From: Dokdonia sp. Hel_I_53
Lineage (GTDB): Bacteria > Bacteroidota > Bacteroidia > Flavobacteriales > Flavobacteriaceae
Reading direction: 5' to 3'
Assembly (NCBI RefSeq): GCF_007827465.1
Contig: NZ_VISL01000001.1
Coordinates: forward strand, 1,817,001-1,881,000
Length of the DNA stretch: 64,000 nt
Positions 2,742 through 63,543 of this stretch are shown in pieces. Below the pieces are notes generated by a model. That model searched no databases. It was given only the letters and a program-made list of their open reading frames with translations, and was not told the origin of the DNA. The position numbers and the translations under genes are program-made. Every line of letters begins with the position of its first letter. The first letter of the stretch is position 1.

Positions 2742-4160
2742 TTATTTGTTATTTACTATTTTCCTGATGTTTTCTAAAAGCGCCGCTAGGTGGGTCATGT
2801 TAGTAAATGGATTCATCACCGTCATCCTAAGAAAGAAATCACCTCTTAACCTAGTAGAGACTATGTAAAATATTCCATCTTCAAGAAGAGATCTTCTTAT
2901 GTTTAAGTTTATATCATCTAAATTTCCACCCTTACCTATATGTCGAAAACAAACAATGTTAGATACAGGATCCAGTGCTAATTCAAAATCTTTTTGTTCT
3001 TTTATAAATGCACCAAAATTTATAGCGGTGTCATACAATGTGGTGAGGAAATCTTCAAAGAATTGACTTCCATATGCGTTAATCAGTACATAAAAGCGCA
3101 AGCTCATCATGCTCTTTGTACACTCAAAAGTGCGTTTAGCAAGATTGAACCAGTCAGGATCGTCATTTTTTTCCCAAAGATATTGTGCCTTTTGCTCAAA
3201 AGCAGCATAGCTTGATGTGCTTTTTTTAAATAGAACAGCAGTAGTTATTGCGCTGATCCCCATCATTTTATGGCCGTCAATAATTATAGAATCTGCTTGA
3301 TTAGCTCCATTGAGCAACTGCTTGTACTTTGATGAAAAAATAGCCGCTCCTCCGTGAGCAGCATCTATATGGAACCAAATATTTTTTGCTTTCGCGAAAG
3401 CAGAAATAGCCTCAAGATCATCATAAACTCCAGTACTCGTACTTGGGGCGCTGCCTACAACTGCAATTATTTCAAATCCATTGTTAATCGCTTGAGCATA
3501 ATATGTTTCAAGCAAATCTGTACGCATCTTAAAATTTTTATCTGATGGAATTTTTATAATTCCTCCAGAGCCTAATCCCATAATACGAGCACTGCGATCT
3601 ACACAGTAGTGTGCTTCTTCTGAAACCAAAATGGCTAATTTATGAGTAGCACCTTCATTCCAAACATCGCTAGAAGCTTTTATACTGCGAGCGGCTAACA
3701 GTGCCGTAAGGTTTGCAAGTGTACCTCCTGAAGTCAAAAAGCCATCTCCATTTTTAAAACCCAAAGCTTGGGTAAAAAATTCAATTACAACCCGTTCCAG
3801 AGCTGTAGAGGCAGCTCCCATTTCATAAACCGCCATTCCATTGTTAAGCTGTGCGCTTAGTAAGGTGGCTAGTGCAGATAGTGGTACAGAGGGTGCTACT
3901 TGATGTCCTATGTAGTGAGGGTGATGGGTATGAATGGATCGCTCTATAACCGTCTGAAAGAGCTGCGAGGTAGTGTAGCCTTTTTGTTTGAAATTTTTCC
4001 AAAAGAGGTATTCTTCATCTGGCTCAGACCAGTTAATAACCTTCTCACTCTCCATAGAGACTGTCTTACTTAAATAATCTGATAGTAAGTTAATGAGATG
4101 ATCACCCTCTTCCTTAAAAATGGAACTATCATATACTTTATGCAATAAAGGTGTGCTCAT
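2742..4160 (-). CDS. PLP-dependent group II amino-acid decarboxylase
   Basis: 472 residues. Hallmarks of the aromatic-amino-acid/glutamate/diaminobutyrate decarboxylase family are present: TSGGTLANLTAL at about 143-154 (cofactor phosphate), HIDAAHGG at about 264-271 with the cofactor-contacting Asp266, and the Schiff-base lysine Lys298 in DGHKMM. It should remove CO2 from an amino acid, but the substrate cannot be read from the sequence. It sits 6 bp after arsR and 10 bp before the DUF6428-like gene, so it is co-transcribed with arsenic genes, which is unexpected. Residues AFAKA (254-258) are encoded by a copy of the iterated palindrome. A distant paralogue is at 44702-46150. Confidence 0.85.
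   Translation of the reverse strand: MSTPLLHKVYDSSIFKEEGDHLINLLSDYLSKTVSMESEKVINWSEPDEEYLFWKNFKQKGYTTSQLFQTVIERSIHTHHPHYIGHQVAPSVPLSALATLLSAQLNNGMAVYEMGAASTALERVVIEFFTQALGFKNGDGFLTSGGTLANLTALLAARSIKASSDVWNEGATHKLAILVSEEAHYCVDRSARIMGLGSGGIIKIPSDKNFKMRTDLLETYYAQAINNGFEIIAVVGSAPSTSTGVYDDLEAISAFAKAKNIWFHIDAAHGGAAIFSSKYKQLLNGANQADSIIIDGHKMMGISAITTAVLFKKSTSSYAAFEQKAQYLWEKNDDPDWFNLAKRTFECTKSMMSLRFYVLINAYGSQFFEDFLTTLYDTAINFGAFIKEQKDFELALDPVSNIVCFRHIGKGGNLDDINLNIRRSLLEDGIFYIVSTRLRGDFFLRMTVMNPFTNMTHLAALLENIRKIVNNK
3388..3401. repeat. Iterated palindrome GCTTTCGCGAAAGC, copy 1
   Basis: Exact 14-mer inside the PLP decarboxylase gene, read as AFAKA. The flanks extend the symmetry to T...A (16 bp) but not to the common CGC...GCG form. 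Confidence 0.95.
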
Positions 4161-4166
4161 AATAAC

Positions 4167-4490
4167 TTAGCAACATTTTGCTTTTGTAACATTAAAAAAA
4201 CCATTGAAAAGCTCTTGAACTTGTTCCCACTTAAGGACATCTATACTGTAATATTGTGATTTTCCTTTGAAGTAACTTTTTAAGATTCCAGCCTTTTTTA
4301 TGACTTGTAGGTGTTGAGAAGTGGTAGGTTGTGATAATCTTATTTTATCTGATATATCTTGACATAAGCAACCATCACAATCTCCTATATAATCAATAAT
4401 AGCAACACGAGCGGGATGAGAAAATATTTTTGCCAAATCTGCTATCATATTTGCCTGAGTGGAGTGAATGTGTCGTTTTGTAACGCCCAT
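4167..4490 (-). CDS. arsR: ArsR/SmtB-family transcriptional repressor
   Basis: 107 residues with a winged-helix fold. FSHPARVAIIDYI begins the HTH region and SQPTTSQHLQVIKKAGIL is the recognition helix and turn. Cysteines 38, 41 and 43 (CDGCLC) and a terminal CC pair (106-107) are candidate arsenite ligands; the pattern is not the classical ELCVCDL. It is first in an operon with the PLP decarboxylase, the DUF6428-like gene and arsC, and should release the operator when trivalent arsenic binds. An 18-bp inverted repeat (4526-4543) lies 36 bp upstream of its start and is the likely binding site. Confidence 0.88.
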   Translation of the reverse strand: MGVTKRHIHSTQANMIADLAKIFSHPARVAIIDYIGDCDGCLCQDISDKIRLSQPTTSQHLQVIKKAGILKSYFKGKSQYYSIDVLKWEQVQELFNGFFNVTKAKCC

Positions 4491-4525
4491 AATAATTAAA
4501 CTTTAAACAAAGTTAATTAAAAAAT

Positions 4526-6055: not shown

Positions 6056-6994
6056 CTAAAAACGTGCGAGTATTTTATCAACTATAGTTTGAGACAATTT
6101 AACCTTACTCTCTATTGTCCACCCAGCAATGTGAGGTGTAAGTATTACATTATCTTGTTTGATAAGATATTCTAATGGCACAGGTATGCTTTGGTTTCCT
6201 GTAAAAAGATTTTCAAAAGATAAATTTTCATATTCTAAAACGTCTAATCCAGCACCTAATATTTTACCATCCTTCATCGCAGCAACGAGATCTTTTGTAA
6301 CAACTGACTTACCCCTTGCAGTGTTTATGAGATAGAACGCTTTCGCGAAAGCGTTTATAAAATTACTATCTACCATTTGATCGGTTTTAGGGGTCCAAGG
6401 TGTATGTAAACTCAACACATCTGCCTCTTTTTGAAGGGTTGTTAAAGACACTTGTCGAGCGTTTTCATCTCCCAGCCCATTCTTTAGATCATAGCATACT
6501 ACATTGCAATCAAAACCTTTTAATTTCTTTGCAAAGGCTTTTCCCATATTTCCATACCCAATGATCCCAACGGTTTTTCCCTCTAATTCAACACCCCTAT
6601 TCTGCTCCCGGTTCCAATGACCCGCTTTTACCTCTCTATCTGCACGATTAATATTATTGAAAAGATTTAGAAGCATTCCTAATGCCTGTTCTCCTACAGC
6701 ATTTCTATTTCCTTCTGGTGAGTTTATAAGATAAATCCCTTTTTCTTTTGCATATTTAACGTCAATACTCTCTAAACCAGCACCTACACGAGCGATGAAT
6801 TTTAAATTAGTAGCAGCATCTATAAAAAGTCTGTCTATTTTGAATCTGCTTCTTATCACAATGCCATCATACATTCCTATAATCTTCTCAGTCTCTGCTT
6901 TTGAAATTTTATAATTCTCATCATTAGTATGTCCTGCATCTGTAAGTTGATCTACAAGTAGTGGGTGATTTTTATCTAAATGTAATATTTTCAT
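6056..6994 (-). CDS. D-2-hydroxyacid dehydrogenase (NAD-binding), phosphoglycerate-dehydrogenase-like
   Basis: 312 residues. The Rossmann motif GYGNMG is at 146-151 with an acidic strand end (CYDLK) selecting NAD. The catalytic triad of the family is visible: Arg227 in NTARG, Glu254 in VLEYEN and His288 in LTPHIAGW. It oxidises a D-2-hydroxy acid to the 2-oxo acid or the reverse. It lacks the C-terminal ACT domain of long SerA enzymes, so calling it serA is not safe without the rest of a serine operon. The segment AFAKAF near 215 is encoded by the iterated palindrome. Confidence 0.85.
   Translation of the reverse strand: MKILHLDKNHPLLVDQLTDAGHTNDENYKISKAETEKIIGMYDGIVIRSRFKIDRLFIDAATNLKFIARVGAGLESIDVKYAKEKGIYLINSPEGNRNAVGEQALGMLLNLFNNINRADREVKAGHWNREQNRGVELEGKTVGIIGYGNMGKAFAKKLKGFDCNVVCYDLKNGLGDENARQVSLTTLQKEADVLSLHTPWTPKTDQMVDSNFINAFAKAFYLINTARGKSVVTKDLVAAMKDGKILGAGLDVLEYENLSFENLFTGNQSIPVPLEYLIKQDNVILTPHIAGWTIESKVKLSQTIVDKILARF
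6339..6352. repeat. Iterated palindrome, copy 2
   Basis: Exact core in the hydroxyacid dehydrogenase gene, AFAKA frame. The symmetry extends to 20 bp (AACGC...GCGTT). Confidence 0.95.
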
Positions 6995-8886: not shown

Positions 8887-9753
8887 TTACTCAGATTTTA
8901 ATTCGATTTCTATCGATCGCGTAAGGTTTATAAAGTCTTGTACTGATAGCTGTTCTGGGCGCAGGTTTAGGATTTCGCTTTCGCGAAAGCGATCACTCAA
9001 TTCAAACCCCTTGAGACTATTTCTCAACGTTTTTCTACGTTGTTGAAAAGCTGCTTTTACCACTTTGAATAACATGTCTTCACGACAGCCAATGTTCTCA
9101 AAATTTTCTTTTCGCTTTAAGCGTAATACGCCACTATCTACCTTAGGTGGTGGAATAAACACAGTAGGAGGTACTGTAAAAAGATACTCCGCATCATAAA
9201 AAGCCTGCGCTAGTACTGAAAGAATTCCATATGTTTTACTTCCATGACTTGCACAAATACGCATTGCCACTTCCTTTTGAAACATTCCTGTAAATTCTGG
9301 GATACGACATTTGTGTTCAATCGTTTTAAACACAATTTGAGTAGAAATATTGTAAGGAAAATTACCCGTTATAGCTAGTTGCTCATTTGGATATATAGTA
9401 TCCAGATCGTACTTAAGAAAATCTGCTTCTAGCACTGTGAAAGTCTCTTCGTTTAAATTATGTTCTAAAGTGAATGAACTTTGCAAATAGGCTATAGACT
9501 CTCTATCTAAGTCCATTACGGTGAGTTCTACTGGTTTTTTAAGGATGTATTTTGTGAGCACACCTGTTCCAGGGCCTATTTCTAAAACATGTTTGTATTT
9601 CTCTAAGGTAAGTGTGTCTGCAATGTCTAGAGCCACACTCTCATCTCCCAAAAAGTGCTGACCTAGATGCTTTTTTGCCTGCACACCTTGATCTCTAGCA
9701 TTACGGCTAGCGTGTGGCTTTTCAAACTTACGCTTTGCTGAGTATTTTGCCAT
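8887..9753 (-). CDS. rsmA: 16S rRNA (adenine1518-N6/adenine1519-N6)-dimethyltransferase
   Basis: 288 residues. KKHLGQHFL (27-35) is the family N-terminal signature, LEIGPGTG (57-64) the SAM-binding motif I and NFPYNIS (near 130) the catalytic motif IV. It dimethylates two adjacent adenines in the 3' terminal helix of 16S rRNA during small-subunit maturation. About 25 basic residues precede the signature, but the ATG overlaps the upstream stop codon by 1 nt (TAATG), which supports this start. The C-terminal domain contains DRFRESEIL, written by the iterated palindrome. Confidence 0.93.
8977..8990. repeat. Iterated palindrome, copy 3
   Basis: Exact core within rsmA, read as RFRES. The symmetry extends to 18 bp (TCGC...GCGA). 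Confidence 0.95.
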
Positions 9754-10061: not shown

Positions 10062-10070
10062 AGTAGTTTC

Positions 10071-11937: not shown

Positions 11938-13209
11938 CTAGTCAATCATCTCAAAACCGCAATAAGGGATCAACACTTTTGGTATTTTAATTCCTTCTGG
12001 AGTTTGGCAGTTTTCAAGAATACCTGCAAGTACTCTAGGCAGTGCTAAAGCACTTCCATTAAGAGTATGGGCTAATTTGTTTTGTCCATCTTTATCTTTA
12101 AATCGTAGTTTAAGGCGATTTGCTTGAAAGGTTAGAAAATTCGATACAGAACTTATCTCTAGCCAGCGATCTTGAGCTGTAGAAAACACCTCAAAATCAT
12201 AAGTAAGATGTGATGTAAAACCTAAATCTCCACCACAAAGGCGTAAAATTCGATACGGTAATTCTAATTCATCAAGAATTGTTTTTACGTGATCTACCAT
12301 TCCTTCAAGTGCAGCAGCACTTTTATCTGGATGTTCAATACGTACGATCTCTACTTTATCAAATTGATGTAAACGGTTTAACCCCCGTACATGAGCGCCA
12401 TAAGATCCTGCCTCACGGCGAAAACATGGTGTATATCCAGTACACGTAATAGGAAGTTCATCGTGAGAGCGTAAATCTCCACGAAACATATTGGTTACAG
12501 GAACCTCTGCCGTTGGTATTAAATACAAATCATCCTCTGTAATATGATACATTTGCCCTTCTTTATCTGGAAGTTGACCTGTACCAAAACCTGAAGCTTC
12601 ATTTACAAGATGTGGCACTTGATATTCTGTATACCCTGCCTCCGTATTTTTATCTAAAAAATAACTTATTAATGCGCGTTGTAGCTTAGCTCCTTTTCCT
12701 TTATATACTGGAAAACCAGCTCCCGTGATTTTAGTTCCTAACTCAAAATCTATAATGTCATATTTTTTTGCAAGTTCCCAGTGGGGTTGTGCACCATCGT
12801 GTAAAACTGGGACTTCTCCTTTTTTAAAAATCTCTACATTATCTTCATCTGTGTTCCCAAGAGGAACACTATCGTGAGGAATATTTGGCAGTTGGTATAA
12901 TAGACTTTGAAGCTCTTCAGAAGCAGTATTTAATTGCTCTTGTAATGTCTTAGACTGCTCCTTTAAACCTGCTGTTTTCTCTTTAAGGAGATTTGCCTTT
13001 TGGGTTTCTCCAGATTTAAACAACATACCTATTTCTTTAGAAAATTTATTACTATCTGCTAGAACTTCATCTAATTGAGCCTGCGAACTACGGCGCAACT
13101 CATCTGCAGCAAGTACTTTATCCAGTAACGGAGCAGCATCAATATTACGTTTGTGTAACGCTTTCGCGAAAGCGTCCTTATGTTCTCTAATCTGTACAAC
13201 TTCTAGCAT
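11938..13209 (-). CDS. serS: Seryl-tRNA synthetase
   Basis: 423 residues, normal length. The N-terminal helical arm that holds the tRNA variable arm spans about 30-105. The class II core follows with motif 2 (TPCFRREAGSYG) and motif 3 (LNGSALALPRVLAGILE), and the serine-binding TAEVP segment is present. It charges tRNA-Ser. Residues DAFAKALHK near the N-terminus are encoded by the iterated palindrome, within the region before the coiled-coil arm. Confidence 0.96.
   Translation of the reverse strand: MLEVVQIREHKDAFAKALHKRNIDAAPLLDKVLAADELRRSSQAQLDEVLADSNKFSKEIGMLFKSGETQKANLLKEKTAGLKEQSKTLQEQLNTASEELQSLLYQLPNIPHDSVPLGNTDEDNVEIFKKGEVPVLHDGAQPHWELAKKYDIIDFELGTKITGAGFPVYKGKGAKLQRALISYFLDKNTEAGYTEYQVPHLVNEASGFGTGQLPDKEGQMYHITEDDLYLIPTAEVPVTNMFRGDLRSHDELPITCTGYTPCFRREAGSYGAHVRGLNRLHQFDKVEIVRIEHPDKSAAALEGMVDHVKTILDELELPYRILRLCGGDLGFTSHLTYDFEVFSTAQDRWLEISSVSNFLTFQANRLKLRFKDKDGQNKLAHTLNGSALALPRVLAGILENCQTPEGIKIPKVLIPYCGFEMID
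13160..13173. repeat. Iterated palindrome, copy 4
   Basis: Exact core near the 5' end of serS, AFAKA frame; 18-bp symmetry (ACGC...GCGT). Confidence 0.95.
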
Positions 13210-13304: not shown

Positions 13305-14726
13305 CTATTTAGTACTTTCTTTTTCTTTTGATCGTGCATATTTTTCTACAGAAGGTGACTTCTTATCTAAATATCCATCACTATCTAAAACCCACTCATT
13401 ATGACGCAGGTGATCCCATTTTACACTGGCAAGGTCTACTTCTGGATCAATAAGAAGTTTTGACGGTCGTCCATTCACTCTAACACGGCATTTTACATAA
13501 ATCGCCACATCTTTTCCTAGTGCTTGCTGTTCTCGCTTTACATATTGCGCAAATTGCCAAATAATATCGGGCTTAGACCGAATATTACGCTGTTGATTTT
13601 TGGTTAAATACTCTTTATAATTCAGGACTCTTCTTTTCCCAGTCGCCTTATCTTCCATCGTGAATGTTACTGCACCTCCTTTTGATCGTAACATCATACG
13701 CCAACTAAGACGATGTCCTTCTTCTGTCCATAGAACTTTATCTTTTATAAAATGTTGACGTAGAGGTAACGCTATCTGCACAAGGAAGTAAATTCCAAAT
13801 GCCATGAGCATTAAGTTCTTATAGTGAGGAATTGACACATTGCTATCCTCTAATGTTACTACATCGGTATCGCCAGCATAATAATAAGGTTTCCAGCGAG
13901 TTAAAAAGAGACGGTGAATAGTTTTGGGCTCAAAAAAGAACACACAAAAAGCCAGTGACATATATGGGAAAATCCCTATTTGAAAAACGATGGAGTTGAA
14001 TAGGTGAAAAAAGATAGAAATGAAAAACGCCCATTTTCGAGTACGTTTCCATAGAAGTAACGGAATGATTAATCCGTCAAAAAGTATCCCTACGTATGAA
14101 ATAGTCCAATGTACCCAGCGTTCTTGTAACAAATCACCCACAATTCTATAATCGCTGCGTCCTCGCATTAAAATTTGTGGCACCGTAGCATCTAGCCAGT
14201 CTGGGTATAATTTTGCAATGGAAGCATAGGTGTAAACTATCCATAGTTGTAAAATAATCAAAAGCGTCACCCATCTAGGCATGGAGATGTCTCTTACGCT
14301 TTCGCGAAAGCGTGCATCTATTGAGAAAGCAGCATTTGCAGGGAGAAGGGCCATTATCCATAACAACAACATCAACAAATAGTAATGGTTATTATAGGCT
14401 GTTTTTTGCATTAAATACACCACACTCCACATAATCGCATACCCAATAATGGCTATACGATACTTGTAACCTAGCATTACCATGACACCAAATATTCCCA
14501 TCACTGCAAACCAGCCATACATTTGTGGTCCTGGGCCTGGAAATGTTTGTAGAAAATCAAATCCAATAAAGTTGAATGTAAATTCTGGATTTACAAGAAT
14601 ACGACGCACCCATCCAGTAGCTAGTGCTCCCCATGCTTCGCAGGTAATTAAAAATCCAAAAAATACTCTAAAAACAATGAGAGCGCTATTATCTATTCGT
14701 GTAAAAAGATATTTATCAAGATTCAT
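13305..14726 (-). CDS. HTTM-domain membrane protein (vitamin K-dependent gamma-carboxylase-like)
   Basis: 473 residues. The N-terminal half has about seven to eight hydrophobic helices in the horizontally transferred transmembrane (HTTM) arrangement, starting FTRIDNSALIVFRVFFGFL and including the conserved KTAYNNHYYLLMLL segment. The C-terminal half (about 330-473) is soluble and basic, the position of the extra domain in gamma-carboxylase-like proteins. Bacterial members have no established substrate. The ATG overlaps the ribF stop by 1 nt (TGATG), so it is coupled to ribF. The palindrome encodes DARFRESVRD near residue 140. Confidence 0.8.
   Translation of the reverse strand: MNLDKYLFTRIDNSALIVFRVFFGFLITCEAWGALATGWVRRILVNPEFTFNFIGFDFLQTFPGPGPQMYGWFAVMGIFGVMVMLGYKYRIAIIGYAIMWSVVYLMQKTAYNNHYYLLMLLLWIMALLPANAAFSIDARFRESVRDISMPRWVTLLIILQLWIVYTYASIAKLYPDWLDATVPQILMRGRSDYRIVGDLLQERWVHWTISYVGILFDGLIIPLLLWKRTRKWAFFISIFFHLFNSIVFQIGIFPYMSLAFCVFFFEPKTIHRLFLTRWKPYYYAGDTDVVTLEDSNVSIPHYKNLMLMAFGIYFLVQIALPLRQHFIKDKVLWTEEGHRLSWRMMLRSKGGAVTFTMEDKATGKRRVLNYKEYLTKNQQRNIRSKPDIIWQFAQYVKREQQALGKDVAIYVKCRVRVNGRPSKLLIDPEVDLASVKWDHLRHNEWVLDSDGYLDKKSPSVEKYARSKEKESTK
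14298..14311. repeat. Iterated palindrome, copy 5
   Basis: Exact core in the HTTM gene, RFRES frame, in a loop between predicted helices; 18-bp symmetry. Confidence 0.95.
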
Positions 14727-15672: not shown

Positions 15673-16302
15673 TTATTTACCGTTAAAGGCGTTCATTGTA
15701 TTATTTATCCCTGCACTTACAAAAGAGGCTATTACTTCGCAACTCTTATCAAGACGCTCAGGCATTGCTGCTGCTTCTTTTGCATCCCATTCACCTAATA
15801 CATAATCTACTTGACGGCCCTTTGAGAACTGGTCACTTATCCCAAAGCGAAAACGATTATATTTAGTTGTATTAAGCTGTGCTTGTATATCTTTTAATCC
15901 ATTGTGACCTCCGTCAGAACCTTTGGTTTTTACCCGAACGGTACCGAATTCTAGATTCAAGTCGTCAGTAATCACCAGTAAATTTTCTATTAAGATTTTT
16001 TCCTGCTGCATCCAATAACGCACTGCCTTTCCGCTTAAGTTCATAAACGTATTAGGTTTAAGCAATATAACCGTTTTACCTTTTATTTTAGTACGAGCGA
16101 TATCGCCTAGTTTTTCTGTTTCAAATATTATATCATTCGCTTTCGCGAAAGCGTCTAAAATCTTAAACCCAATATTGTGACGTGTATGTTCATATTTGGG
16201 ACCTATATTGCCTAGACCGACAATGAGAAATTTTTTCATAGGATCTACTACAGAAACCTCCTTTGTTGATCTTTTTAAAATTCTACCAAAAAAAGAAAGC
16301 AT
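15673..16302 (-). CDS. pth: Peptidyl-tRNA hydrolase
   Basis: 209 residues from the first ATG; an internal ATG at 16239 (MKKFLIVGLGN) gives 188 residues, the more usual length, so the true start is uncertain. Conserved features are FLIVGLGNIG, the catalytic His in TRHNIGF, and DDLNLEFG with GGHNGLKDI. It recycles peptidyl-tRNA released from stalled ribosomes. First gene of the pth-ribF-HTTM run and separated from rplY by a terminator. DAFAKANDI is encoded by the palindrome. Confidence 0.92.
   Translation of the reverse strand: MLSFFGRILKRSTKEVSVVDPMKKFLIVGLGNIGPKYEHTRHNIGFKILDAFAKANDIIFETEKLGDIARTKIKGKTVILLKPNTFMNLSGKAVRYWMQQEKILIENLLVITDDLNLEFGTVRVKTKGSDGGHNGLKDIQAQLNTTKYNRFRFGISDQFSKGRQVDYVLGEWDAKEAAAMPERLDKSCEVIASFVSAGINNTMNAFNGK
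16139..16152. repeat. Iterated palindrome, copy 6
   Basis: Exact core in pth, AFAKA frame, flanked as CGC...GCG (16-bp symmetry). Confidence 0.95.
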
Positions 16303-19382: not shown

Positions 19383-20426
19383 TTGAAAAAACCACTCCTA
19401 GAATTTACAGATAAAGGCATCTATTGCCCTCCAGCAAAAGTCTATCTCGATCCTTGGAAACCGGTTGACAAGGCACTTATAACCCACGGCCACGCAGATC
19501 ACAGCCGTTGGGGTCACAAAAAATACATTACGCACGAGAGCAACGTCCCTATAATTTTTCATCGTTTAGGAGATATAAATGTTTCTGGAGTACGCTTTCG
19601 CGAAAGCGTAAACATCAACAACGTAAAATTCACCTTTCATCCTGCTGGGCACATTCCTGGTTCTAGTCAAATTCGGGTAGAACACAAAGGGGAAGTTTGG
19701 GTATTCACGGGTGATTACAAAACAGAAAACGACGGAATATCACAACCCTACGAACCCGTAAAATGTGACACGTTTATTACGGAATGTACCTTTGGCTTAC
19801 CCGCTTTTAAATGGACTCCGCAGGATGAAGTCATGCGGGATATCAATGAATGGTGGGCACAAAATAAAGCAGATGGTAAGTGCTCTGTGTTATTTGCCTA
19901 CAGCTTAGGTAAAGCTCAACGATTACTGAAACACTTGGACCCAAACATCGGAAAAATACTTACACATGGCGCGGTAGAAAAAATGACTGCCGTATTGCGT
20001 CCCATGATTGACATGCCTGCGACAGAATTGATTACAAGAGACACGCCAAAGGCAGATTTTAAAGGTAGCCTTGTTATTGCTCCACCGGCAACACACGGCA
20101 GTACATGGATACGTAAAATGGTTCCTTACGTTACTGCAAGCGCAAGTGGATGGATGGCATTTCGAGGTGCACGTAGACGTAGAGCAATAGACAAAGGGTT
20201 TGTAATGAGTGATCACTGTGACTGGCCATCACTATTAGAGAGTATAAAAGAAACGGGCGCAGAAAAAATCATTTGTACACACGGTTACACAGATATCTTT
20301 TCAAAATATTTACGCAGTATAGGATACGATGCGCGCACAGAAGAAACCCAATATGAGGGAGAAAGTATAGATGACAAGAGTAAAGAAGATGAACTTAAAA
20401 GCGAGACACTTGAAACCTCAACTTAA
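19383..20426 (+). CDS. Ligase-associated DNA exonuclease (MBL/beta-CASP-like fold)
   Basis: 347 residues, TTG start. The metallo-beta-lactamase motif THGHADHS gives the zinc ligands His35, His37, Asp39 and His40; later DHCDW and CTHGYTDIF are the C-terminal motifs of the SNM1/Artemis-like nucleases. It corresponds to the family of exonucleases encoded beside an ATP-dependent ligase and an Lhr-like helicase in bacterial DNA damage repair. The ligase gene follows after 26 bp. The palindrome encodes VRFRESVN near residue 72. Confidence 0.88.
   Translation: MKKPLLEFTDKGIYCPPAKVYLDPWKPVDKALITHGHADHSRWGHKKYITHESNVPIIFHRLGDINVSGVRFRESVNINNVKFTFHPAGHIPGSSQIRVEHKGEVWVFTGDYKTENDGISQPYEPVKCDTFITECTFGLPAFKWTPQDEVMRDINEWWAQNKADGKCSVLFAYSLGKAQRLLKHLDPNIGKILTHGAVEKMTAVLRPMIDMPATELITRDTPKADFKGSLVIAPPATHGSTWIRKMVPYVTASASGWMAFRGARRRRAIDKGFVMSDHCDWPSLLESIKETGAEKIICTHGYTDIFSKYLRSIGYDARTEETQYEGESIDDKSKEDELKSETLETST
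19594..19607. repeat. Iterated palindrome, copy 7
   Basis: Exact core in the exonuclease gene, RFRES frame; 20-bp symmetry (TACGC...GCGTA). Confidence 0.95.
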
Positions 20427-32949: not shown

Positions 32950-32963
32950 GCTTTCGCGAAAGC
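32950..32963. repeat. Iterated palindrome, copy 13 (intergenic)
   Basis: Exact 14-mer 7 bp downstream of the LysR stop codon. One flank is broken (ACGC...GCTT). Confidence 0.95.
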
Positions 32964-35578: not shown

Positions 35579-35592
35579 GCTTTCGCGAAAGC
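35579..35592. repeat. Iterated palindrome, copy 14 (intergenic)
   Basis: Exact core 15 bp after the transporter stop and 19 bp before the next start; 18-bp symmetry (ACGC...GCGT). Confidence 0.95.
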
Positions 35593-41736: not shown

Positions 41737-41750
41737 GCTTTCGCGAAAGC
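41737..41750. repeat. Iterated palindrome, copy 17 (intergenic)
   Basis: Exact core between the divergent mfd and oxidoreductase genes, just upstream of the mfd -7 box; 20-bp symmetry (TACGC...GCGTA). Confidence 0.95.
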
Positions 41751-44672: not shown

Positions 44673-44686
44673 GCTTTCGCGAAAGC
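44673..44686. repeat. Iterated palindrome, copy 18 (intergenic)
   Basis: Exact core 15 bp after the decarboxylase stop and 24 bp before the TspO-like start; the longest symmetry in the window, 22 bp (GTACGC...GCGTAC). Confidence 0.95.
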
Positions 44687-46907: not shown

Positions 46908-48053
46908 GTGCAAACTCATTTTGACTATATCATTTTAGGAGCTGGGCTCTCTGGTTTGACAACCGCTATACGCATGTCTCGCGCTCCATTTTTTTCTCAA
47001 AAAAGTATTGCGATTATAGACCAAAATCTTAGCAAAAAGAATGATCGCACTTGGTGCTTTTGGGAAACTAAACCTAGCCTTTATGAAGAGACCGTTTCCT
47101 ATTCATGGAACTCTATTCTTGTAAAAGAAAATAATATTTCAAAACCAATACCCATTGCTCCTTATACCTACAAGAAAATTGAAAGTGCAGATCTATACGC
47201 TTTCGCGAAAGCTGAATTATCTCAACATAAAAACATTTCATTTATAGAAAGTGAGGTCTCTAGTTATACTGAAAATGAAATTGGTGTCACTGTGACAACG
47301 ACTGATAATTCTTTTACTTGCACCCGCTTATTAAGCAGTATTTATAATCCGACAATTCTTAAAAAACAGGATGAAGCGGTAGTTTTACAACAACACTTTG
47401 TTGGCTGGTTTGTCGAGACAAAGGAGCCTGCATTTGATAAAAGCGTTGCAATCTATATGGATTTTAGTGTCGCTCAAGAGGGTAATTGTCGTTTTATGTA
47501 TGTATTACCTACAACAGCAAACAACGCATTGATAGAATACACTTTATTTTCTAAAGACTTACTCCCGCTTTCTGAATATGAAGATGCCATCAAAACGTAT
47601 CTAGCAAATCTCGGGGTATCGGATTATAAAATAACAGCTCGTGAGAAGGGAAGCATCCCTATGACTACCTATGATTTTACACAGCATAACTCTGAGAATG
47701 TTTTACACATAGGTACTGCTGGTGGCTGGACAAAAGCAAGCACTGGGTACACATTTACACATACACTTGAGAAATCTGCCGCGCTTATTACCTTCTTGAA
47801 AAGCGGCAAACCTTTTACCCAATACAAATTAAAAAACCGATGGACTTTTTACGATGAAGTACTTCTCAAGGTTTTGGACCATAAAAATTATTTGGGAAAA
47901 GAGATTTTTACTGGCATGTTTAAGAAAGGAAAAACCGGTCATATTTTTCGGTTTTTAGATGAAGAATCTTCGATATTAGACGAATTGAAAGTTATTCTCA
48001 GTGCACCTAAAATTCCTTTTATTAGAGCAGCCCTTCAAGTTCTTTTTAGGTAG
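46908..48053 (+). CDS. crtY: Lycopene beta-cyclase
   Basis: 381 residues, GTG start. The N-terminal dinucleotide motif DYIILGAGLSGLTTAIRM and the following NDRTWCFWE are hallmarks of the CrtY/CrtL cyclases; GTAGGWTKASTGYTF is the later conserved segment. It turns lycopene into beta-carotene, the precursor of zeaxanthin and of retinal for rhodopsins. No other carotenoid gene is adjacent. Divergent from pdeM with 45 bp between. YAFAKAELS is encoded by the palindrome. Confidence 0.9.
   Translation: MQTHFDYIILGAGLSGLTTAIRMSRAPFFSQKSIAIIDQNLSKKNDRTWCFWETKPSLYEETVSYSWNSILVKENNISKPIPIAPYTYKKIESADLYAFAKAELSQHKNISFIESEVSSYTENEIGVTVTTTDNSFTCTRLLSSIYNPTILKKQDEAVVLQQHFVGWFVETKEPAFDKSVAIYMDFSVAQEGNCRFMYVLPTTANNALIEYTLFSKDLLPLSEYEDAIKTYLANLGVSDYKITAREKGSIPMTTYDFTQHNSENVLHIGTAGGWTKASTGYTFTHTLEKSAALITFLKSGKPFTQYKLKNRWTFYDEVLLKVLDHKNYLGKEIFTGMFKKGKTGHIFRFLDEESSILDELKVILSAPKIPFIRAALQVLFR
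47199..47212. repeat. Iterated palindrome, copy 19
   Basis: Exact 14-mer in crtY, AFAKA frame; the flanks (ACGC...GCTG) do not extend the symmetry. Confidence 0.95.
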
Positions 48054-48069: not shown

Positions 48070-48083
48070 GCTTTCGCGAAAGC
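48070..48083. repeat. Iterated palindrome, copy 20 (intergenic)
   Basis: Exact core between the convergent crtY and TerB/DnaJ genes, 16 bp from one stop and 12 bp from the other; 20-bp symmetry. No other terminator is visible in this gap. Confidence 0.95.
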
Positions 48084-50323: not shown

Positions 50324-52594
50324 TTATTTAAGATGCTCTGCAAAGAAGCCCATCATTGTTTTATACAAATCCAATCGATTTTCTTCTTTTGCAAAACCAT
50401 GACCTTCGTCATATTTCACCATATAAGGTACAGAAACGCCTCTCTCTCTTAGCTGGGCTACAATTTGATCTGCCTCATCAATATTTACACGAGGATCATT
50501 TGCACCTTGCACTACAAAAAGGGGTTTTACAATTTTATCAGTATGTAATGCTGGAGATATCTCGTCCATAATCTCTTGTTCCTCAGGGATTTCAGGATTA
50601 TACCAGATTTTTTCTACGATTGCACGGTAGTTTTCCCAGTAGGGAGGGAAAGTCGTCATGAATGTATTTAAATTACTTACTCCTACATAATCTACTCCAC
50701 AGGCGTACTTTTCTGGGGTCTTCATCATGCCACGCAGTACGGCATAACCGCCGTGACTTCCTCCAAAAATAGCTACTCTATCTTTATCAATACTTCCTTG
50801 ATCGATCACATAATCTATACCGTCCTCAATATCATCCATCACTTTGCGACCTATCTGTCCATATCCACTATTCAAGAATTCTTTACCATATCCTCCAGAA
50901 ATTCTAAAGTTTACGTGTAGCGTCGCATACCCACGACTTGCAAAAAGTTGTGCTTCTTGATTAAATGCCCACGTATCACGCAATCCTTGAGGTCCTCCAT
51001 GAGGATTGACAATCATAGGGACTTTCTCTCCTTTTTTCACTCCTTGAGGCATTGTAAGATATCCATGAATGGTTTTACCGTCCCTGCTTTTAAAAGTAAT
51101 AGGCTCCATTGCTGCCATATCTTTTTCTTTTAAATGAGGTAGCAACTTGTACAATAATTTTACCTGATCTTTCTTTACATCATATAAATGATATTCTCCT
51201 ACAATACGATCACTAGTGAGCATGATCATAAACTTATCCTCCTCATCCGTACGTCCTACGGTAAAAAATTCTTTGTCTCCAAACTCTTTTTTTAATCGCT
51301 TGTGCAATTTTTTATAGGTACTACTCACAGGTACCACTACAGATTTTTCTGCAACATGTGAAAAATAGTCAATTTCGTAATTACGCTTTCGCGAAAGCGA
51401 AATACCACTTACATCATAGGTATCATCTTCATACACCGTTTCGATCACCTTATTTTCTTTTAGGTCAAATCGTTGAATCTGATACTTGTCAGAATCCAAG
51501 TTTGATACTACATAAGCATCGTGCTCGTATGAAGAGTTGTAATCAAATCTTAAAATCCCAAATCCATCACCAAAGGGTACTACCTTTAACTGTTTGAAAT
51601 CACCATCTATATTATATAAAATTTCAGTTTCAATCTCGTTCACTACGCGGGTTATGGCTCTTAAATTTCCATCTTTATCAAAGTCAAAACCTGCTACTGG
51701 TGGGTCTCCCTCCTTTACACTATATAATTTCTCAATAGCTCCGGTCGCAATATTTAATTTATAAGGCTCATTTTGCTTGAGATCATCTTTATTCATCTGG
51801 ATGATAATATTCTTTGGATCCTCTTTTAATATGGCAAGTATATCTACTCTAACACCTTCATACGGAGTGAGATCTTTTTTATTACTTCCGTCTAAGTTAA
51901 CACCATATACATGGTAATTTTCATCACCTTTAGAGTCCTGTAGATATAATAATCTATCCTCACTAGCCCAGTAATGAACCCTAATCACATCTTCGTCTTG
52001 AGCAACAGCTAATGTCTCTTTCTGTGTTTGTGTGTTTTTTAAATATAAATCCTGTTTGCCATTTTCTCTTCGTTTCATATAGGAGATATAATTGCCATCT
52101 GGAGATAATGTGAAACCACTCACCGCAGATTTTTTGAAGTAATCTTCTACGGTATATTTAAAATCTCCTGTTTCCTTAGCGGCAAGTGTAGCAAGAACAG
52201 CATCTGACGAAGGAAGTGCTGGATTCCCTGGTATTGTTTTTTCTGTTTTCATTAAATCTAATGGATAGTCTGTACCTAATTGTGTGTAGGTGCCTGTGAT
52301 TTTATCATTTGTAAGTGTGCCAATATAATTCATTTTGAGCTTTGCACTTGTTATAGATATCTTATTTTCTTCTAGGATTGCACTGTCCATCGGGATATCT
52401 GTCGCTCCTTGTAGGGGTACATCCATCGTTGCCGTTAAATTACCATCTATATTCTTAAAGTTGTAAAGAAGTTCCATTTCCATTCCTTGAACTTTTAAAA
52501 TACCTTTATAAGTTCCTATAAGTTCTTGTCCCATTGCAATTTGGGCAAATGCACCTAGTAAGATGCCGAGTATAAATTTAATTATTGTTGTCAT
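50324..52594 (-). CDS. Secreted S9-family peptidase (prolyl oligopeptidase/acylaminoacyl-peptidase type)
   Basis: 756 residues. Signal peptide (MTTIIKFILGILLGAFAQIAMGQ); a beta-rich N-terminal extension (about 24-115; LIGTYKGILKVQGMEMELLY) not found in simple S9 enzymes; a propeller region (about 140-480); and the alpha/beta hydrolase with Ser in GGSHGGYAVL, Asp in QGANDPRVN and His in DEGHGFAKE. It cleaves oligopeptides in the periplasm. Last gene of a run with three short membrane-associated proteins. SLSRKRNYE is written by the palindrome. Confidence 0.9.
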   Translation of the reverse strand: MTTIIKFILGILLGAFAQIAMGQELIGTYKGILKVQGMEMELLYNFKNIDGNLTATMDVPLQGATDIPMDSAILEENKISITSAKLKMNYIGTLTNDKITGTYTQLGTDYPLDLMKTEKTIPGNPALPSSDAVLATLAAKETGDFKYTVEDYFKKSAVSGFTLSPDGNYISYMKRRENGKQDLYLKNTQTQKETLAVAQDEDVIRVHYWASEDRLLYLQDSKGDENYHVYGVNLDGSNKKDLTPYEGVRVDILAILKEDPKNIIIQMNKDDLKQNEPYKLNIATGAIEKLYSVKEGDPPVAGFDFDKDGNLRAITRVVNEIETEILYNIDGDFKQLKVVPFGDGFGILRFDYNSSYEHDAYVVSNLDSDKYQIQRFDLKENKVIETVYEDDTYDVSGISLSRKRNYEIDYFSHVAEKSVVVPVSSTYKKLHKRLKKEFGDKEFFTVGRTDEEDKFMIMLTSDRIVGEYHLYDVKKDQVKLLYKLLPHLKEKDMAAMEPITFKSRDGKTIHGYLTMPQGVKKGEKVPMIVNPHGGPQGLRDTWAFNQEAQLFASRGYATLHVNFRISGGYGKEFLNSGYGQIGRKVMDDIEDGIDYVIDQGSIDKDRVAIFGGSHGGYAVLRGMMKTPEKYACGVDYVGVSNLNTFMTTFPPYWENYRAIVEKIWYNPEIPEEQEIMDEISPALHTDKIVKPLFVVQGANDPRVNIDEADQIVAQLRERGVSVPYMVKYDEGHGFAKEENRLDLYKTMMGFFAEHLK
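51385..51398. repeat. Iterated palindrome, copy 21
   Basis: Exact core in the S9 peptidase gene, LSRKR frame, in a propeller loop; 16-bp symmetry. Confidence 0.95.
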
Positions 52595-53518: not shown

Positions 53519-53564
53519 GGTGTTAATTATAATAAGTACGCTTTCGCGAAAGCGCGATAACACC
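53519..53564. repeat. Nested inverted repeat around an iterated palindrome
   Basis: Outer arms GGTGTTA (53519-53525) and TAACACC (53558-53564) enclose the exact palindrome at 53540-53553, allowing a two-level hairpin. Confidence 0.6.
53540..53553. repeat. Iterated palindrome, copy 22 (intergenic)
   Basis: Exact core 61 bp downstream of the AraC-type regulator stop; 16-bp symmetry. Confidence 0.95.
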
Positions 53565-56512: not shown

Positions 56513-56526
56513 GCTTTCGCGAAAGC
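56513..56526. repeat. Iterated palindrome, copy 23 (intergenic)
   Basis: Exact core upstream of the radical SAM gene start; 18-bp symmetry (ACGC...GCGT). Confidence 0.95.
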
Positions 56527-56662: not shown

Positions 56663-57436
56663 TTAAAATTCAGCCTTTCTTTTTTCTAAAAAAGCCGTGG
56701 TTCCTTCTACAAACTCATCTGTGCCAAAGCAACCTCCAAATTCTTCTATTTCTGTATCATAACCATCAACGCCGTCTTCATATCCAGCGTTTACAGCATT
56801 AATTGCCGCAGCAATAGCCATAGGCGAGTTGCGCATAATTTTACTAGCTAGTTTTTGAGCCAGTGGAAGTAGCTCTTCCATAGCTACAATATGATTTATA
56901 AGACCGTATTCTAGAGCAGTATTTGCATCTATCATTCCTGCCGTCATTATCATTTCCATAGCACGACCTTTACCTACAAGTTGTGGTAATCTTTGTGTAC
57001 CTCCGTAACCTGGAATTACACCCAAGCTCACTTCTGGTAATCCCATGCGTGCATTGTCACTCGCAATTCTAAAATGTGCTGCCATAGCTAGTTCAAGACC
57101 ACCTCCAAGTGCAAAACCGTTTACTGCTGCGATAACAGGTGTTCCCATTTCTGCCACGTAATCAAACAAAATTTCTTGTCCTTTTCTAGCAAGATCTGCA
57201 CCTTCAGACTCTGAAAATTTTGCAAATTCTGAGATATCTGCTCCAGCAACAAACGCCTTTTCACCACTTCCGGTTACGATAACAACTCTGATAGCTGAAT
57301 CATCTTCCGCTTTCGCGAAAGCGTTATGCAACTCTTCTATAGTCTCCTTATTAAGCGCATTGAGTTTTGACGGACGGTTAATAGTTATGGTATGTATACC
57401 GTTTTCTGTTGTGGAAAGTATGTTATTGTATGCCAT
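56663..57436 (-). CDS. Enoyl-CoA hydratase/isomerase family protein
   Basis: 257 residues, normal crotonase length. The oxyanion-hole segments are GSGEKAFVAGADISEF and NGFALGGGLELAMA; the two catalytic glutamates are plausible at the GGGLELA and LPEVSLGVIPGYGGTQRL segments. It hydrates enoyl-CoA in fatty-acid or amino-acid breakdown. It follows the NtrY-like kinase gene by 24 bp on the same strand, with no clear functional link. NAFAKAEDD near residue 39 is encoded by the palindrome. Confidence 0.9.
   Translation of the reverse strand: MAYNNILSTTENGIHTITINRPSKLNALNKETIEELHNAFAKAEDDSAIRVVIVTGSGEKAFVAGADISEFAKFSESEGADLARKGQEILFDYVAEMGTPVIAAVNGFALGGGLELAMAAHFRIASDNARMGLPEVSLGVIPGYGGTQRLPQLVGKGRAMEMIMTAGMIDANTALEYGLINHIVAMEELLPLAQKLASKIMRNSPMAIAAAINAVNAGYEDGVDGYDTEIEEFGGCFGTDEFVEGTTAFLEKRKAEF
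57309..57322. repeat. Iterated palindrome, copy 24
   Basis: Exact core in the enoyl-CoA hydratase gene, AFAKA frame; 16-bp symmetry. It is the closest pair in the window, 796 bp from copy 23. Confidence 0.95.
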
Positions 57437-60343: not shown

Positions 60344-63300
60344 TTACTCCTTTGCTTCCTCCACAAACAAATAATCTAATTTCAAGCTATTAAATTCTTC
60401 ATTAAACGCAGCTACCTCAGCATCTAGCATATTGTCAAATGTTTCTAGTTCCTTATTAATTTGAGCAGTGAGTTGATTCTTAACGGCTATATCCTGCGCC
60501 GTTGGCGCAAAATCTCCCATCCCTACCAGGCTATTGAGGTGACCAAGTTTGTTAGTTAATTTAATGGGGAAGTTAAGCGGGTCTTGCCCTGATCGGTTTT
60601 TAGTTTGGTATAGCTCCTTTTCAATCTCGCCAAAATTTTCCTGCATTTTTTCAGCTTTTTCACGTAACGCTGTCGTGCGAGCATCATCTTCATATTGCGC
60701 TGTAAAAGATTTCAATTGCTCATTTATCTTTCTAATTTTCTTGATACTTTGGTGTGCACGATCAACCGCTGCATTTACCTCTGTTATAAAAGTATGCTGC
60801 GCTTTCATATCTGCTACAGTTGCCTCTGCATTAGGGTTTGCAAGTATTTCAAAGTTCTCAGTTTGTACTTTCCCGTCAACGTTGAGCGCTACTTTATAAT
60901 TTCCTGGTACGGCTTTAGGTCCGTCTAGACTTGCCCACCATAAAATCATGCCGTCTAGCTTTTCGGCACCATCAATTCTGGTGTCCCAAGTAAAAAGATT
61001 CCCTCCTTTTTTAGCTTTTAATTGTTTGTCTTCCTTTTTTGCAGCGGTATTAAAAGACTGTAATGTATCGCCAGCCATGGTCATATAGGTAAGCGCAATG
61101 GTGTCATTTTCTTTGTCAAAATCTTTCAAATTAAAGTACGTCATCACGCCACTTGGATGATTTGTCCCTTCGGTAAGGCTCTTATTGCCACCACGGCCAC
61201 CCATTCGGTAGGTAGCTTTGGGTTGGAATAATGTATCGGTTCCCGCTTTCGCGAAAGCGGCCTGACGCAACATCCCCAAGTCATCAATAATCCAAAGACT
61301 ACGCCCTTGTGTAGCTACAATAAGGTTGTCGTTCTTAATGGTAAGATCTGTAATAGGAACAATAGGCAGGTTTAACTGAAATGATTTCCAGTTCATACCA
61401 TCATCAAAACTGATATACATTCCGGTTTCTGTTCCTGCGTAAAGGAGACCTTTTTGCTTAGGGTCTTCACGTACAACTCTTGTAAAATGCTCGGCTGGAA
61501 TTCCGTTAGTGATTTTTTTCCATGACTTCCCGTAGTCGGTTGTTTTGTATAAATAAGGTGTAAAATCTCCCAGTTTGTAACGTGTCCCAGCAACATACGC
61601 CGTTCCTTCCTCAAAAGCAGATGGCTCTACACTATTAATCATCATATTTACGGGCATACTCTTAGGGGTAACATTCTCCCAAGACTGACCGCCATTTTGA
61701 GTAACATGTATTAAACCATCATCACTCCCTGTCCACAATAACCCTTCCTTAAGTGGCGACTCTGCTGCTGCAAAAATGGTACAGTAATATTCTACACTCG
61801 TATTATCCTGAGTAATGGGTCCACCAGACGATTTCATTTTTTCTGGGTCATTAGTCGTAAGGTCCGGGCTAATGACTTTCCAGCTCTGCCCTTCATTCTC
61901 ACTCACGTGAACACTCTGTGAGAAGGTGTATAATTTATCTGGGTCGTGTTTTGAGAAAATGATTGGGAAATTCCACTGAAAGCGGTATTTCATATCTTCT
62001 ACACCGTGACCCATAGGGTTGTCTGGCCATACTGAAATAGATCGGACTGTGTTTCTATCGTGATTCACACGCGTTAAGAAGCCATCATAACTACCACCGT
62101 ACACAATCTCATTGTTCTCTGGATCTACAGCAATATGTGCACTTTCACCACCAGCGGTGCTCTCCCAGTCATCCTCGCTAATGCTTCCCCCTTCGGTTCT
62201 ATGCGGAATACGTATCGTACTATTATCCTGCTGCGCCACATAAATTCTATATGGAAATGCATTATCTGTAGTTACTCTATAAAATTGCGCCGTAGGTTGG
62301 TTCATATAAGTACTCCACGAGCGGCCACCATCATAAGATACTTGTGCACCTCCATCATCTCCTATAATCATACGATTAGGATCTTCTGGAGCGATCCATA
62401 GATCATGGTGATCACCATGAGGCGCGTTGTAGGTACTAAATGATTTACCACCATCAGTTGATTTGTGGTAACGCACATTTAATACGTATACCGTATTCTC
62501 ATCTGCTGTGTCTGCATATAAACGAGTGTAATACCAAGCGCGTTGACGTAGCTTACGCTCATCATTAATTTTTTTCCAAGTAGTACCAGCATCTGTAGAG
62601 GTGTATAATCCGCCCTCTTCTTGGTTTTCTACCATCGCATACAGGCGATTACTATTTACTGGAGAAACGGTAATACCCATAATTCCTAAAATACCTTTTG
62701 CAAATCCTTCGTTGGTAGAAATTTCTTTCCATGTCTCCCCACTGTCTGTACTTTTCCATAGTGCAGACCCTTCTCCTCCAGAGCTTAAGCTGTACGGAGT
62801 TCTACGTGCATTCCAAGTAGTTGCATATAAAATACGTGGATTATTTGGGTCAATGATCAAGTCTACAACACCACTGTCTTCATTTGAAAACAGTGTCCTT
62901 TTCCAGGTTTTTCCACCATCAATACTTTTATAAACACCACGCTCTTGTGTAGGTTTATAGATATTACCCAAAACCCCTGCATAGACGATATCTGAGTTTG
63001 TGGGATGCACCCGTATTCTAGGCACATGTCTACTTTCTTTAAGTCCAGACTGCGCCCACGTTTTCCCCGCATCTTCAGATTTCCAAATCCCGTAACCAGA
63101 AGACACATTACCACGCAGAGTTTTTTCACCACCTCCTACATAAATAACATTAGGGTCGCTTTTGGAAACTTCCACCGCACCTATACTTCCGCCAAAGAAA
63201 CCATCTGAAATATTCTCCCATTCTTTACCGCCATTAGTTGTGCGCCATACACCGCCTCCAGTGCTTCCCATATAAAAAAGATCTGGCTGCCCAGGCACTC

Positions 63301-63451
63301 CAGTGACTGCTGCACTACGCCCTCCTCTAAAAGGGCCAATAAGGCGATATTCTAGAGCGTCGTAGGCAGTTTCTTCTTGAGAAGTCTGAGCGTTACTATT
63401 AAATGAAAGACCTACTAATAGGAAACTTATAAGTAAATTAATTTTGCGCAT
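60344..63451 (-). CDS. Secreted BNR/sortilin-like beta-propeller protein
   Basis: 1035 residues with a signal peptide (MRKINLLISFLLVGLSFNSNAQ). Repeated Asp-box motifs (STDSGETWKE, STDGGKSF, SYDGGRSW, TDYGKSWKK, SFDDGMNWK) form one or two propellers of the VPS10/sortilin or exo-alpha-sialidase-like fold over about residues 30-720; the C-terminal 300 residues are a helical/beta region of unknown function. Often named glycosyl hydrolase, but the catalytic residues of a sialidase are not evident, so a binding or peptidase-accessory role is equally possible. Confidence 0.82.
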   Translation of the reverse strand: MRKINLLISFLLVGLSFNSNAQTSQEETAYDALEYRLIGPFRGGRSAAVTGVPGQPDLFYMGSTGGGVWRTTNGGKEWENISDGFFGGSIGAVEVSKSDPNVIYVGGGEKTLRGNVSSGYGIWKSEDAGKTWAQSGLKESRHVPRIRVHPTNSDIVYAGVLGNIYKPTQERGVYKSIDGGKTWKRTLFSNEDSGVVDLIIDPNNPRILYATTWNARRTPYSLSSGGEGSALWKSTDSGETWKEISTNEGFAKGILGIMGITVSPVNSNRLYAMVENQEEGGLYTSTDAGTTWKKINDERKLRQRAWYYTRLYADTADENTVYVLNVRYHKSTDGGKSFSTYNAPHGDHHDLWIAPEDPNRMIIGDDGGAQVSYDGGRSWSTYMNQPTAQFYRVTTDNAFPYRIYVAQQDNSTIRIPHRTEGGSISEDDWESTAGGESAHIAVDPENNEIVYGGSYDGFLTRVNHDRNTVRSISVWPDNPMGHGVEDMKYRFQWNFPIIFSKHDPDKLYTFSQSVHVSENEGQSWKVISPDLTTNDPEKMKSSGGPITQDNTSVEYYCTIFAAAESPLKEGLLWTGSDDGLIHVTQNGGQSWENVTPKSMPVNMMINSVEPSAFEEGTAYVAGTRYKLGDFTPYLYKTTDYGKSWKKITNGIPAEHFTRVVREDPKQKGLLYAGTETGMYISFDDGMNWKSFQLNLPIVPITDLTIKNDNLIVATQGRSLWIIDDLGMLRQAAFAKAGTDTLFQPKATYRMGGRGGNKSLTEGTNHPSGVMTYFNLKDFDKENDTIALTYMTMAGDTLQSFNTAAKKEDKQLKAKKGGNLFTWDTRIDGAEKLDGMILWWASLDGPKAVPGNYKVALNVDGKVQTENFEILANPNAEATVADMKAQHTFITEVNAAVDRAHQSIKKIRKINEQLKSFTAQYEDDARTTALREKAEKMQENFGEIEKELYQTKNRSGQDPLNFPIKLTNKLGHLNSLVGMGDFAPTAQDIAVKNQLTAQINKELETFDNMLDAEVAAFNEEFNSLKLDYLFVEEAKE
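61245..61258. repeat. Iterated palindrome, copy 25
   Basis: Exact core in the BNR gene, AFAKA frame, between the propeller and the C-terminal region; 18-bp symmetry (CCGC...GCGG). Confidence 0.95.
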
Positions 63452-63529
63452 TGTTTGCTATGGTGTTGATTCTGAATTAGAAATTTACAGAATTCTTATG
63501 AATGGCAGAAATGCGGTTGGGTATTTAAC

Positions 63530-63543
63530 GCTTTCGCGAAAGC
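63530..63543. repeat. Iterated palindrome, copy 26 (intergenic)
   Basis: Exact core 3 bp after the MATE transporter stop; 16-bp symmetry. Confidence 0.95.

Follow-up and report, generated by a model that had tools for sequence, protein, structure and literature searches.

A perfect 14-bp palindrome iterated across Dokdonia genomes, a possible DNA-uptake tag

What is the use of a perfect palindrome that a bacterial chromosome repeats every few kilobases? The question is raised by a stretch of 64,000 nucleotides from Dokdonia sp. Hel_I_53 (Flavobacteriaceae; contig NZ_VISL01000001.1, positions 1,817,001 to 1,881,000), hereafter the window. The exact 14-letter palindrome GCTTTCGCGAAAGC occurs there 26 times, and not once across 100 dinucleotide shuffles. 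A sequence-only reading of the window had likened the motif to highly iterated palindrome 1 (HIP1) of cyanobacteria or to a DNA-uptake sequence, and held it to be unlike clustered regularly interspaced short palindromic repeats, repetitive extragenic palindromic (REP) elements or transposons. That description holds: the motif is iterated genome-wide and, as shown below, is a maintained DNA signal. Among the roles then listed for it, that of an uptake tag appears to be the best supported, in view of its strictness, its spacing, the permissive sites that it occupies and its conservation.

Abundance, unit and placement of the palindrome

The genome-wide count had been set beforehand as the test on which the element would stand or fall. 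The genome (2.93 Mb, one contig) contains 700 copies, or 239 per Mb, and none of the reversed pattern; the copies are thus not restricted to the window. Their density is 4.1 per 10 kb in the window versus 2.4 per 10 kb in the genome.

In a sample of 864 kb of the genome, which combines the window with 40 further stretches of 20 kb, there are 196 exact matches to the motif; another 27 copies differ from it at one position and 37 at two. Twelve permuted palindromes used as controls have no exact copy in the same sample and 0-1 with one mismatch. The earlier estimate that such a word should hardly arise by chance is borne out by Markov models of order 1-4, which expect 0.0015-0.0115 copies in these 864 kb. 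The sequence TTCGCGAA occurs 232 times, in 231 cases as TTTCGCGAAA and in 196 as the complete 14-mer; similarly, 196 of the 265 occurrences of TCGCGA sit in the full unit. Intergenic copies also have preferred flanking bases (T in 85%, A in 63%, and C in 75% or T in 22%), which define the element as a 20-bp dyad, TAY-GCTTTCGCGAAAGC-RTA, with a nearly invariant inner 14 bp. The flanks of 13 Nonlabens copies are somewhat different (C or T at -2, C in 96% at -1), much like a dialect.

Where do the copies lie? With genes delimited by two simple purpose-made callers, 95 or 96 of the 196 copies are intergenic, versus about 11% of the sequence that is non-coding (P = 4e-39). Their median distance is 41 bp to gene 3' ends and 90 bp to gene starts, figures uncontrolled for gap structure. 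Inside genes the motif is read as AFAKA (59 copies), LSRK (22) or FRES (20), the first of these in several signal-peptide-like places. A transcription terminator or RNA hairpin, or else a mobile repeat (REP or miniature inverted-repeat transposable element), would agree with the potential to form a hairpin and with a half share of intergenic copies, often by stop codons. Yet the other half of the copies lie in genes, no common sequence extends past about 4 bp of flank, and the conserved feature is base identity, not pairing. A T-run follows the motif within 10 nt in 8 of 190 half-views, and an intrinsic terminator was rejected on this count. We consider this whole family of explanations very improbable.

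The copies also keep away from one another. In the 864-kb sample no pair is closer than 500 bp (20.7 expected), five pairs are closer than 1 kb (41 expected) and 13 closer than 1.5 kb (61 expected); copies per 20 kb are underdispersed, with a variance of 2.14 for a mean of 4.25. Among the first 100 copies of the genome, 2 of 99 intervals fall below 1 kb versus 20.1 expected, and the first 97 copies listed for D. sinensis give 2 of 96 versus 19.8. Five other Dokdonia genomes have, at the locus of the window, six pairs below 1 kb versus 24.6 expected. In Dokdonia the average spacing is about 4 kb (one copy per 4.2 kb), with mutual exclusion below roughly 1-1.5 kb. Nonlabens and the sister genus of Dokdonia (G210) show no close pairs, versus 2.5 and 1.4 expected, in samples too small to decide.

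This spacing bears on a further possibility, a signal for recombination, replication restart or segregation resembling Chi or the FtsK-orienting polar sequences, which would be palindromic in order to act in both directions. Such a signal would likewise be genome-wide, strict and conserved, and a palindrome would serve either replichore; however, exclusion below 1 kb and a strong intergenic preference are unexpected for it, and 14 bp is long for Chi. We find this reading improbable.

Conservation, distribution and candidate readers

The sites of the window were compared with 60 kb from each of five Dokdonia relatives: 21 of the 26 can be aligned in at least one relative, and 18 of these 21 are exact in at least one. 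Over the ordered pairs of eight genomes, 334 aligned site comparisons comprise 279 exact matches, 28 with one mismatch, 11 with more and 16 gapped; 555 further comparisons had no alignment. Identity per column is 94-99% in the motif versus 66-96% in the flanks.

Coding sites were compared through protein-guided alignment, with same-phase segments of the same genes as controls. Ordered comparisons within Dokdonia give 176 exact sites out of 233 (of the rest, 20 differ at one position and 18 at two to ten, and 19 are unaligned), while 1493 of 8797 control segments (17%) are exact. Between Dokdonia and its sister genus 13 of 16 coding comparisons, representing three distinct sites, are exact, versus 4 of 610 controls. 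Of 412 codons that encode conserved residues within the motif, 409 are identical, whereas the same residues at other places in these genes lead one to expect 266.9, a large effect even though the species pairs are not independent. Selection or drive acts on the DNA itself.

How far does the motif extend among relatives? All 13 Dokdonia genomes searched, our own and 12 others, have 369-905 copies; seven genomes that bear the name Dokdonia, some of them in the same set, have 610-878. The sister genus (g199, the G210 genome) has 408 copies, and two genomes of g19, which we take to be Nonlabens, have 578 and 664. Within the family Flavobacteriaceae 61 of 299 genomes contain a match, with hundreds solely in these three genera; the others searched have 0-19 copies (16 and 19 in g85, 17 and 1 in g60, nine or fewer in the rest). 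Eight out of eight genomes from other families of the order have none. A scan of the phylum found a match in 22 of 395 genomes, hundreds of copies being present in our own genome alone. Outside the family eight of its genomes have one copy each, which is at chance level, since the reversed control matches once in 14 genomes. Motif presence has a sharp boundary between the bearing genera and relatives without it. A tree of mfd built by a quick method places the window inside Dokdonia, in the Flavobacteriaceae, with G210 as sister to Dokdonia; the position of Nonlabens is not fixed by it.

We also screened motif-poor genera for any iterated 14-mer, low-complexity words being dropped. Sixteen genera were sampled through one genome each (55 kb for G096, 20 kb for the others), and none of them has a 14-mer with more than three copies; the same screen recovers the motif at 12-13 copies from samples of 60-80 kb of G210 and Nonlabens. 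In a 20-kb stretch of another genome (L167, G221) 10-mers with TTGGCCAA recur, in 5, 4 and 4 copies, and may represent another, weaker iterated palindrome.

In the low-copy genomes 39 copies were inspected, on 20 stretches from 11 genomes. About 25 of them fall within efflux/TolC-like, P-type ATPase or Fur-like genes, as judged by reading the peptides rather than by a family scan, and in some cases one and the same 933-bp pair turns up in different genera. For many of these copies lateral acquisition seems likely, with the motif-bearing group as the probable source. Motif-bearing genes of the same three kinds recur in several motif-poor genera of the family (L081-L096). In three such genomes (G138, G121 and G221) a ParB_N protein of 599-616 aa is found about 6-21 kb from a motif copy, suggesting conjugative elements.

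What might read the motif? Methylation was one role proposed by the sequence-only reading. In cyanobacteria a model for iterated palindromes has been put forward, in the portion of PMC4390886 on this subject, in which methylation and repair act together. Its equivalent here would be a by-product: a methyltransferase marks the site, and methyl-directed mismatch repair creates and keeps the copies. Over-representation of a GC-rich palindrome throughout the genome fits this model, and exclusion below about 1 kb would also be expected from a repair-range effect. Against it, the unit is 14-20 bp long and holds most TCGCGA, whereas the usual sites of methyltransferases are shorter. Among 11 motif-bearing genomes PF00145 is found in 3, PF01555 (over cut-off) in 2, PF02086 in 4 and PF02384 in 9; among 12 motif-poor ones the numbers are 6, 4, 3 and 12. 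The PF02086 match of our own genome is a weak fragment. None of the four families is thus common to all 11 bearing genomes; a HIP1-type methyltransferase was rejected, the methylation role is weakened, and we give the repair model little credence.

A site for an abundant protein akin to Noc, MatP or SlmA, one that organizes the chromosome or couples it to division, is a more serious rival, albeit an unlikely one. A dimer would bind each dyad, and even coverage would be selected. The perfect two-fold symmetry and 20-bp footprint speak for it, as do even spacing round the sampled chromosome and site-by-site conservation. However, degenerate copies of the motif are few, and sites of chromosome-organizing proteins are usually degenerate. 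Our own genome has a single ParB_N match, as most motif-poor genomes do, with no extra ParB or Noc paralogue, and canonical parS (searched for with the pattern that we take to be standard) is present separately near the GC-skew minimum in the sampled sequence. ParB or Noc was rejected as an unlikely reader on these grounds. Density against distance from the GC-skew minimum shows no significant trend, such slope as there is favouring the origin (Spearman -0.26, P = 0.09), so a mark of the origin-terminus axis was rejected too. The nucleoid or segregation role suggested earlier nevertheless keeps some probability.

The 26 copies of the window

All 26 copy positions given by the sequence-only reading are exact. 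So are its 22 copies with the 16-mer flanks CGC...GCG, its smallest spacing of 796 bp and its mean of 2.4 kb; only the claim of a single TCGCGA outside the motif needs amending, as there are two, at 40884 and 42980. One variant with one mismatch, GCTTTCGCAAAAGC at 2223..2236, is the sole one in the window.

The first three copies fall where the stretches of the relatives cannot be aligned: 3388..3401 in a pyridoxal phosphate-dependent decarboxylase gene (2742-4160), 6339..6352 in a 2-hydroxyacid dehydrogenase gene (6056-6994) and 8977..8990 in an rRNA adenine dimethylase gene (8887-9753). The fourth (13160..13173), in the 5' end region of the seryl-tRNA synthetase gene (11938-13209), is exact in both alignable relatives. 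Exact in 4 of 4 relatives are the copies in an HTTM/gamma-carboxylase-like gene (14298..14311), in the peptidyl-tRNA hydrolase gene (16139..16152) and in a gene without a Pfam match at 1e-5 (19594..19607; gene 19383-20426). The gene for a ligase-associated DEXH helicase carries two copies: at the one in its start region (23273..23286) the aligned place has 2-3 mismatches in 4 of 4 relatives, and the other (24372..24385) is exact in 4 of 4.

Copies in a Tex-like gene (26939..26952, frame FRES), in the methionyl-tRNA synthetase gene (29220..29233) and, further on, in an S9 peptidase gene (51385..51398, frame LSRK) are each exact in three of four relatives and have one mismatch in the fourth. The copy of the LD-carboxypeptidase gene (31107..31120) and two intergenic ones, adjoining a LysR-type gene (32950..32963) and between tandem genes (35579..35592), are exact in 4 of 4. 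The next (36859..36872) is probably intergenic, being covered by a 62-aa open reading frame (ORF) only, and is exact in 1 of 3 alignable relatives. In mfd the copy at 38813..38826 is read as AFAKA, as it is in the sister genus G210; it is exact in three of five relatives and has one mismatch in two. At 41737..41750 the copy occupies the gap that separates mfd from an oxidoreductase gene, or else the 5' end of the oxidoreductase ORF (exact 1/1).

The intergenic copy at 44673..44686 extends to a 22-bp palindrome (GTAC...GTAC), and its aligned place is gapped in 3 of 3 relatives. The lycopene cyclase copy (47199..47212) is exact in 5 of 5. Of the remaining intergenic copies, the one between convergent genes (48070..48083) is gapped in the single alignable relative, the one at 53540..53553 is exact in its single relative, and those at 56513..56526 and 63530..63543 are not alignable. 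Finally, an enoyl-CoA hydratase gene carries a copy in frame AFAKA (57309..57322, exact 2/2), and a large gene (60344-63451, with a sub-threshold match to the F510_1955 glycosylhydrolase) carries another (61245..61258, exact 1/1). An Rfam scan of the window gave one tRNA and nothing else, and a plasmid search with a single window protein gave no match.

A tentative uptake tag and its counterparts elsewhere

We favour, at a little under an even chance, the reading of the motif as the self-recognition tag of natural transformation, i.e. a DNA-uptake sequence. Ranked after it come a chromosome-protein site, and then, lower still and level with each other, a HIP-type repair product and a recombination signal. 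A receptor at the surface or in the periplasm, probably dimeric given the two-fold symmetry of the dyad, would prefer fragments that bear it. Such fragments would recombine back, so that tagged alleles would spread, and mutated tags would be repaired from kin DNA, a molecular drive with or without benefit. As one tag per fragment would suffice, close extra tags would gain nothing, hence the short-range exclusion. Tags would settle at the least harmful places: in intergenic DNA, close to stop codons, and within signal peptides or tolerant loops. Among the features by which uptake sequences are judged, the motif has genome-wide over-representation, even spacing with few close pairs (in Dokdonia) and permissive positions at which the tag itself is conserved.

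The machinery was sought as well. ComEC is present in 23 of 23 genomes examined. A type IV filament locus at about 1.550-1.562 Mb (L252:12533-20000, L122:1-4208) encodes the platform protein T2SSF, PilO, a secretin, the ATPase T2SSE and pilins; the gene for its prepilin peptidase, matched just under the cut-off, carries a motif copy. The locus has several prepilin-like genes, and motif copies lie inside two genes (L252:14942, L122:3372). Its filament ATPase has close homologues in motif-poor genera among the best 120 of 8000 matches. One pilin (L122:3774-4208) has nine relatives among the matches listed.

For acquired DNA, all six 20-kb stretches with two copies or fewer were scanned, each in part. 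One of them (L106, genome positions 386250-406249) covers most of a 20-kb copy-free interval; its island (ORFs 7568-19998) encodes a Zot-like protein, an Eco57I/MmeI-type restriction-modification enzyme and an OLD-nuclease/UvrD pair (Gabija-like), and holds no exact copy, with three one-mismatch copies in the stretch. Another (L109, 606000-625999) has SIR2 and HerA genes side by side, and encodes a protein that combines an NADase-translocation domain with Hint/intein-type domains. Two more sparse stretches (L122, L139) contain very large surface-type genes; the dense stretches L119 and L130 contain core genes. The closely related Nonlabens phages P12024S and P12024L have no copy, versus about 6.4 expected in each. 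A scan of viral contigs with the 16-mer returned 41 stretches of 30 contigs, some of them chance matches in GC-rich DNA. Motif density is lower in two Dokdonia genomes of 5.5 Mb, though the count still rises with size, which does not decide the matter.

Several observations weigh against an uptake tag. The expectation that acquired DNA should be poor in the motif holds only in part: two sparse stretches consist of ordinary core genes (the histidine operon in L113, a class I tRNA synthetase and UvrC in L127), one phage contig (IMGVR_UViG_3300040781_000495; L201, L218, L221), with portal, terminase, tail-sheath and baseplate genes, carries six copies in 27.9 kb, near host density, and the copy count of Dokdonia genomes rises with their size (Spearman 0.75). 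ComEC and the filament ATPase are found in motif-poor Flavobacteriaceae as well, so that none of the genes examined follows the distribution of the motif. The sole Pfam match of the pilin mentioned above is ComP_DUS, below threshold (27.1 bits versus a cut-off of 27.3); its best match in the PDB is the major pilin PilA, and its model is poor (predicted local distance difference test score of 55.5), so that this protein is a lead, not the receptor. Coding sites compared between Dokdonia and Nonlabens are unaligned in 4 of 4 cases, with 4 of 156 controls exact. The motif is a perfect palindrome, whereas the known DNA uptake sequences (DUS) and uptake signal sequences (USS) are asymmetric and shorter. 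Lastly, none of the literature consulted shows competence in Dokdonia or Nonlabens.

A larger claim, more tentative again, is that this would be the first uptake sequence in Bacteroidota and also the first to be palindromic, to the extent of our searches. A dimeric receptor, belonging to a type IV filament or to some outer-membrane machine, would read the 20-bp dyad; the tag would have had a single origin or have spread in the group of Dokdonia, its sister genus and Nonlabens, and would keep gene flow inside it. A literature search, supplements not covered, found no paper with the 14-mer GCTTTCGCGAAAGC or on HIP and Flavobacteria together, and no title about the motif among the listings obtained. 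Genome-wide iterated signals are recorded from few groups, and the present one stands out for its strictness, its even spacing and the conservation of its individual sites. As an uptake tag it would make self-recognition in Bacteroidota transformation directly testable; with any other function it would imply a hitherto undescribed protein that has several hundred fixed sites on each chromosome. In both cases it offers a clean example of how long palindromic tags arise and persist.

How does the motif compare with known systems? Like HIP1 and the alternate HIPs of cyanobacteria it is a GC-rich palindrome found genome-wide, in coding and non-coding DNA. Unlike HIP1, it differs in sequence and length (GCGATCGC has no copy in the window), and no shared cognate methyltransferase was found for the four Pfam families in the 11 motif-bearing genomes. 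The sites of Noc, parS and matS are palindromic and of dimer type, as it is; they number in the tens and are confined or degenerate, unlike the hundreds of even, strict copies seen here beside a separate parS and ParB. DUS and USS measure 9-12 bp and occur about once per kb; our motif is a perfect palindrome of 14-20 bp, present once per 4.2 kb, in Bacteroidota. Its density of 239 per Mb also departs from the 1000-2000 per Mb quoted for HIP in the relevant part of PMC4390886.

Closer to Dokdonia, Riemerella columbina, which its authors place in the Flavobacteriaceae, prefers its own DNA in a competition assay (PMC7965970, in part); the k-mers listed there, unlike our motif, reach only 10 bp, the top ones being A/T-rich, and that part establishes no tag. 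In R. anatipestifer a screen described in sections of PMC8459023 identified proteins of unknown function required for transformation or uptake. Excerpts of PMC2397512 and PMC7811141 describe the DUS of Neisseria as highly conserved, set in permissive places, spaced in relation to the length of conversion fragments and rare in acquired DNA, the last of which the Dokdonia motif shows only partly. By the same excerpts, it resembles Neisseria DUS and Pasteurellaceae USS in being a strict short sequence of many copies with a roughly even or fragment-length spacing, located in intergenic and permissive sites, the tag being conserved and its surroundings variable. Taken together, its strictness, spacing, permissive placement and conservation are closer to what is seen in the uptake sequences of Neisseria and Haemophilus than to HIP1 or to the sites of nucleoid proteins.

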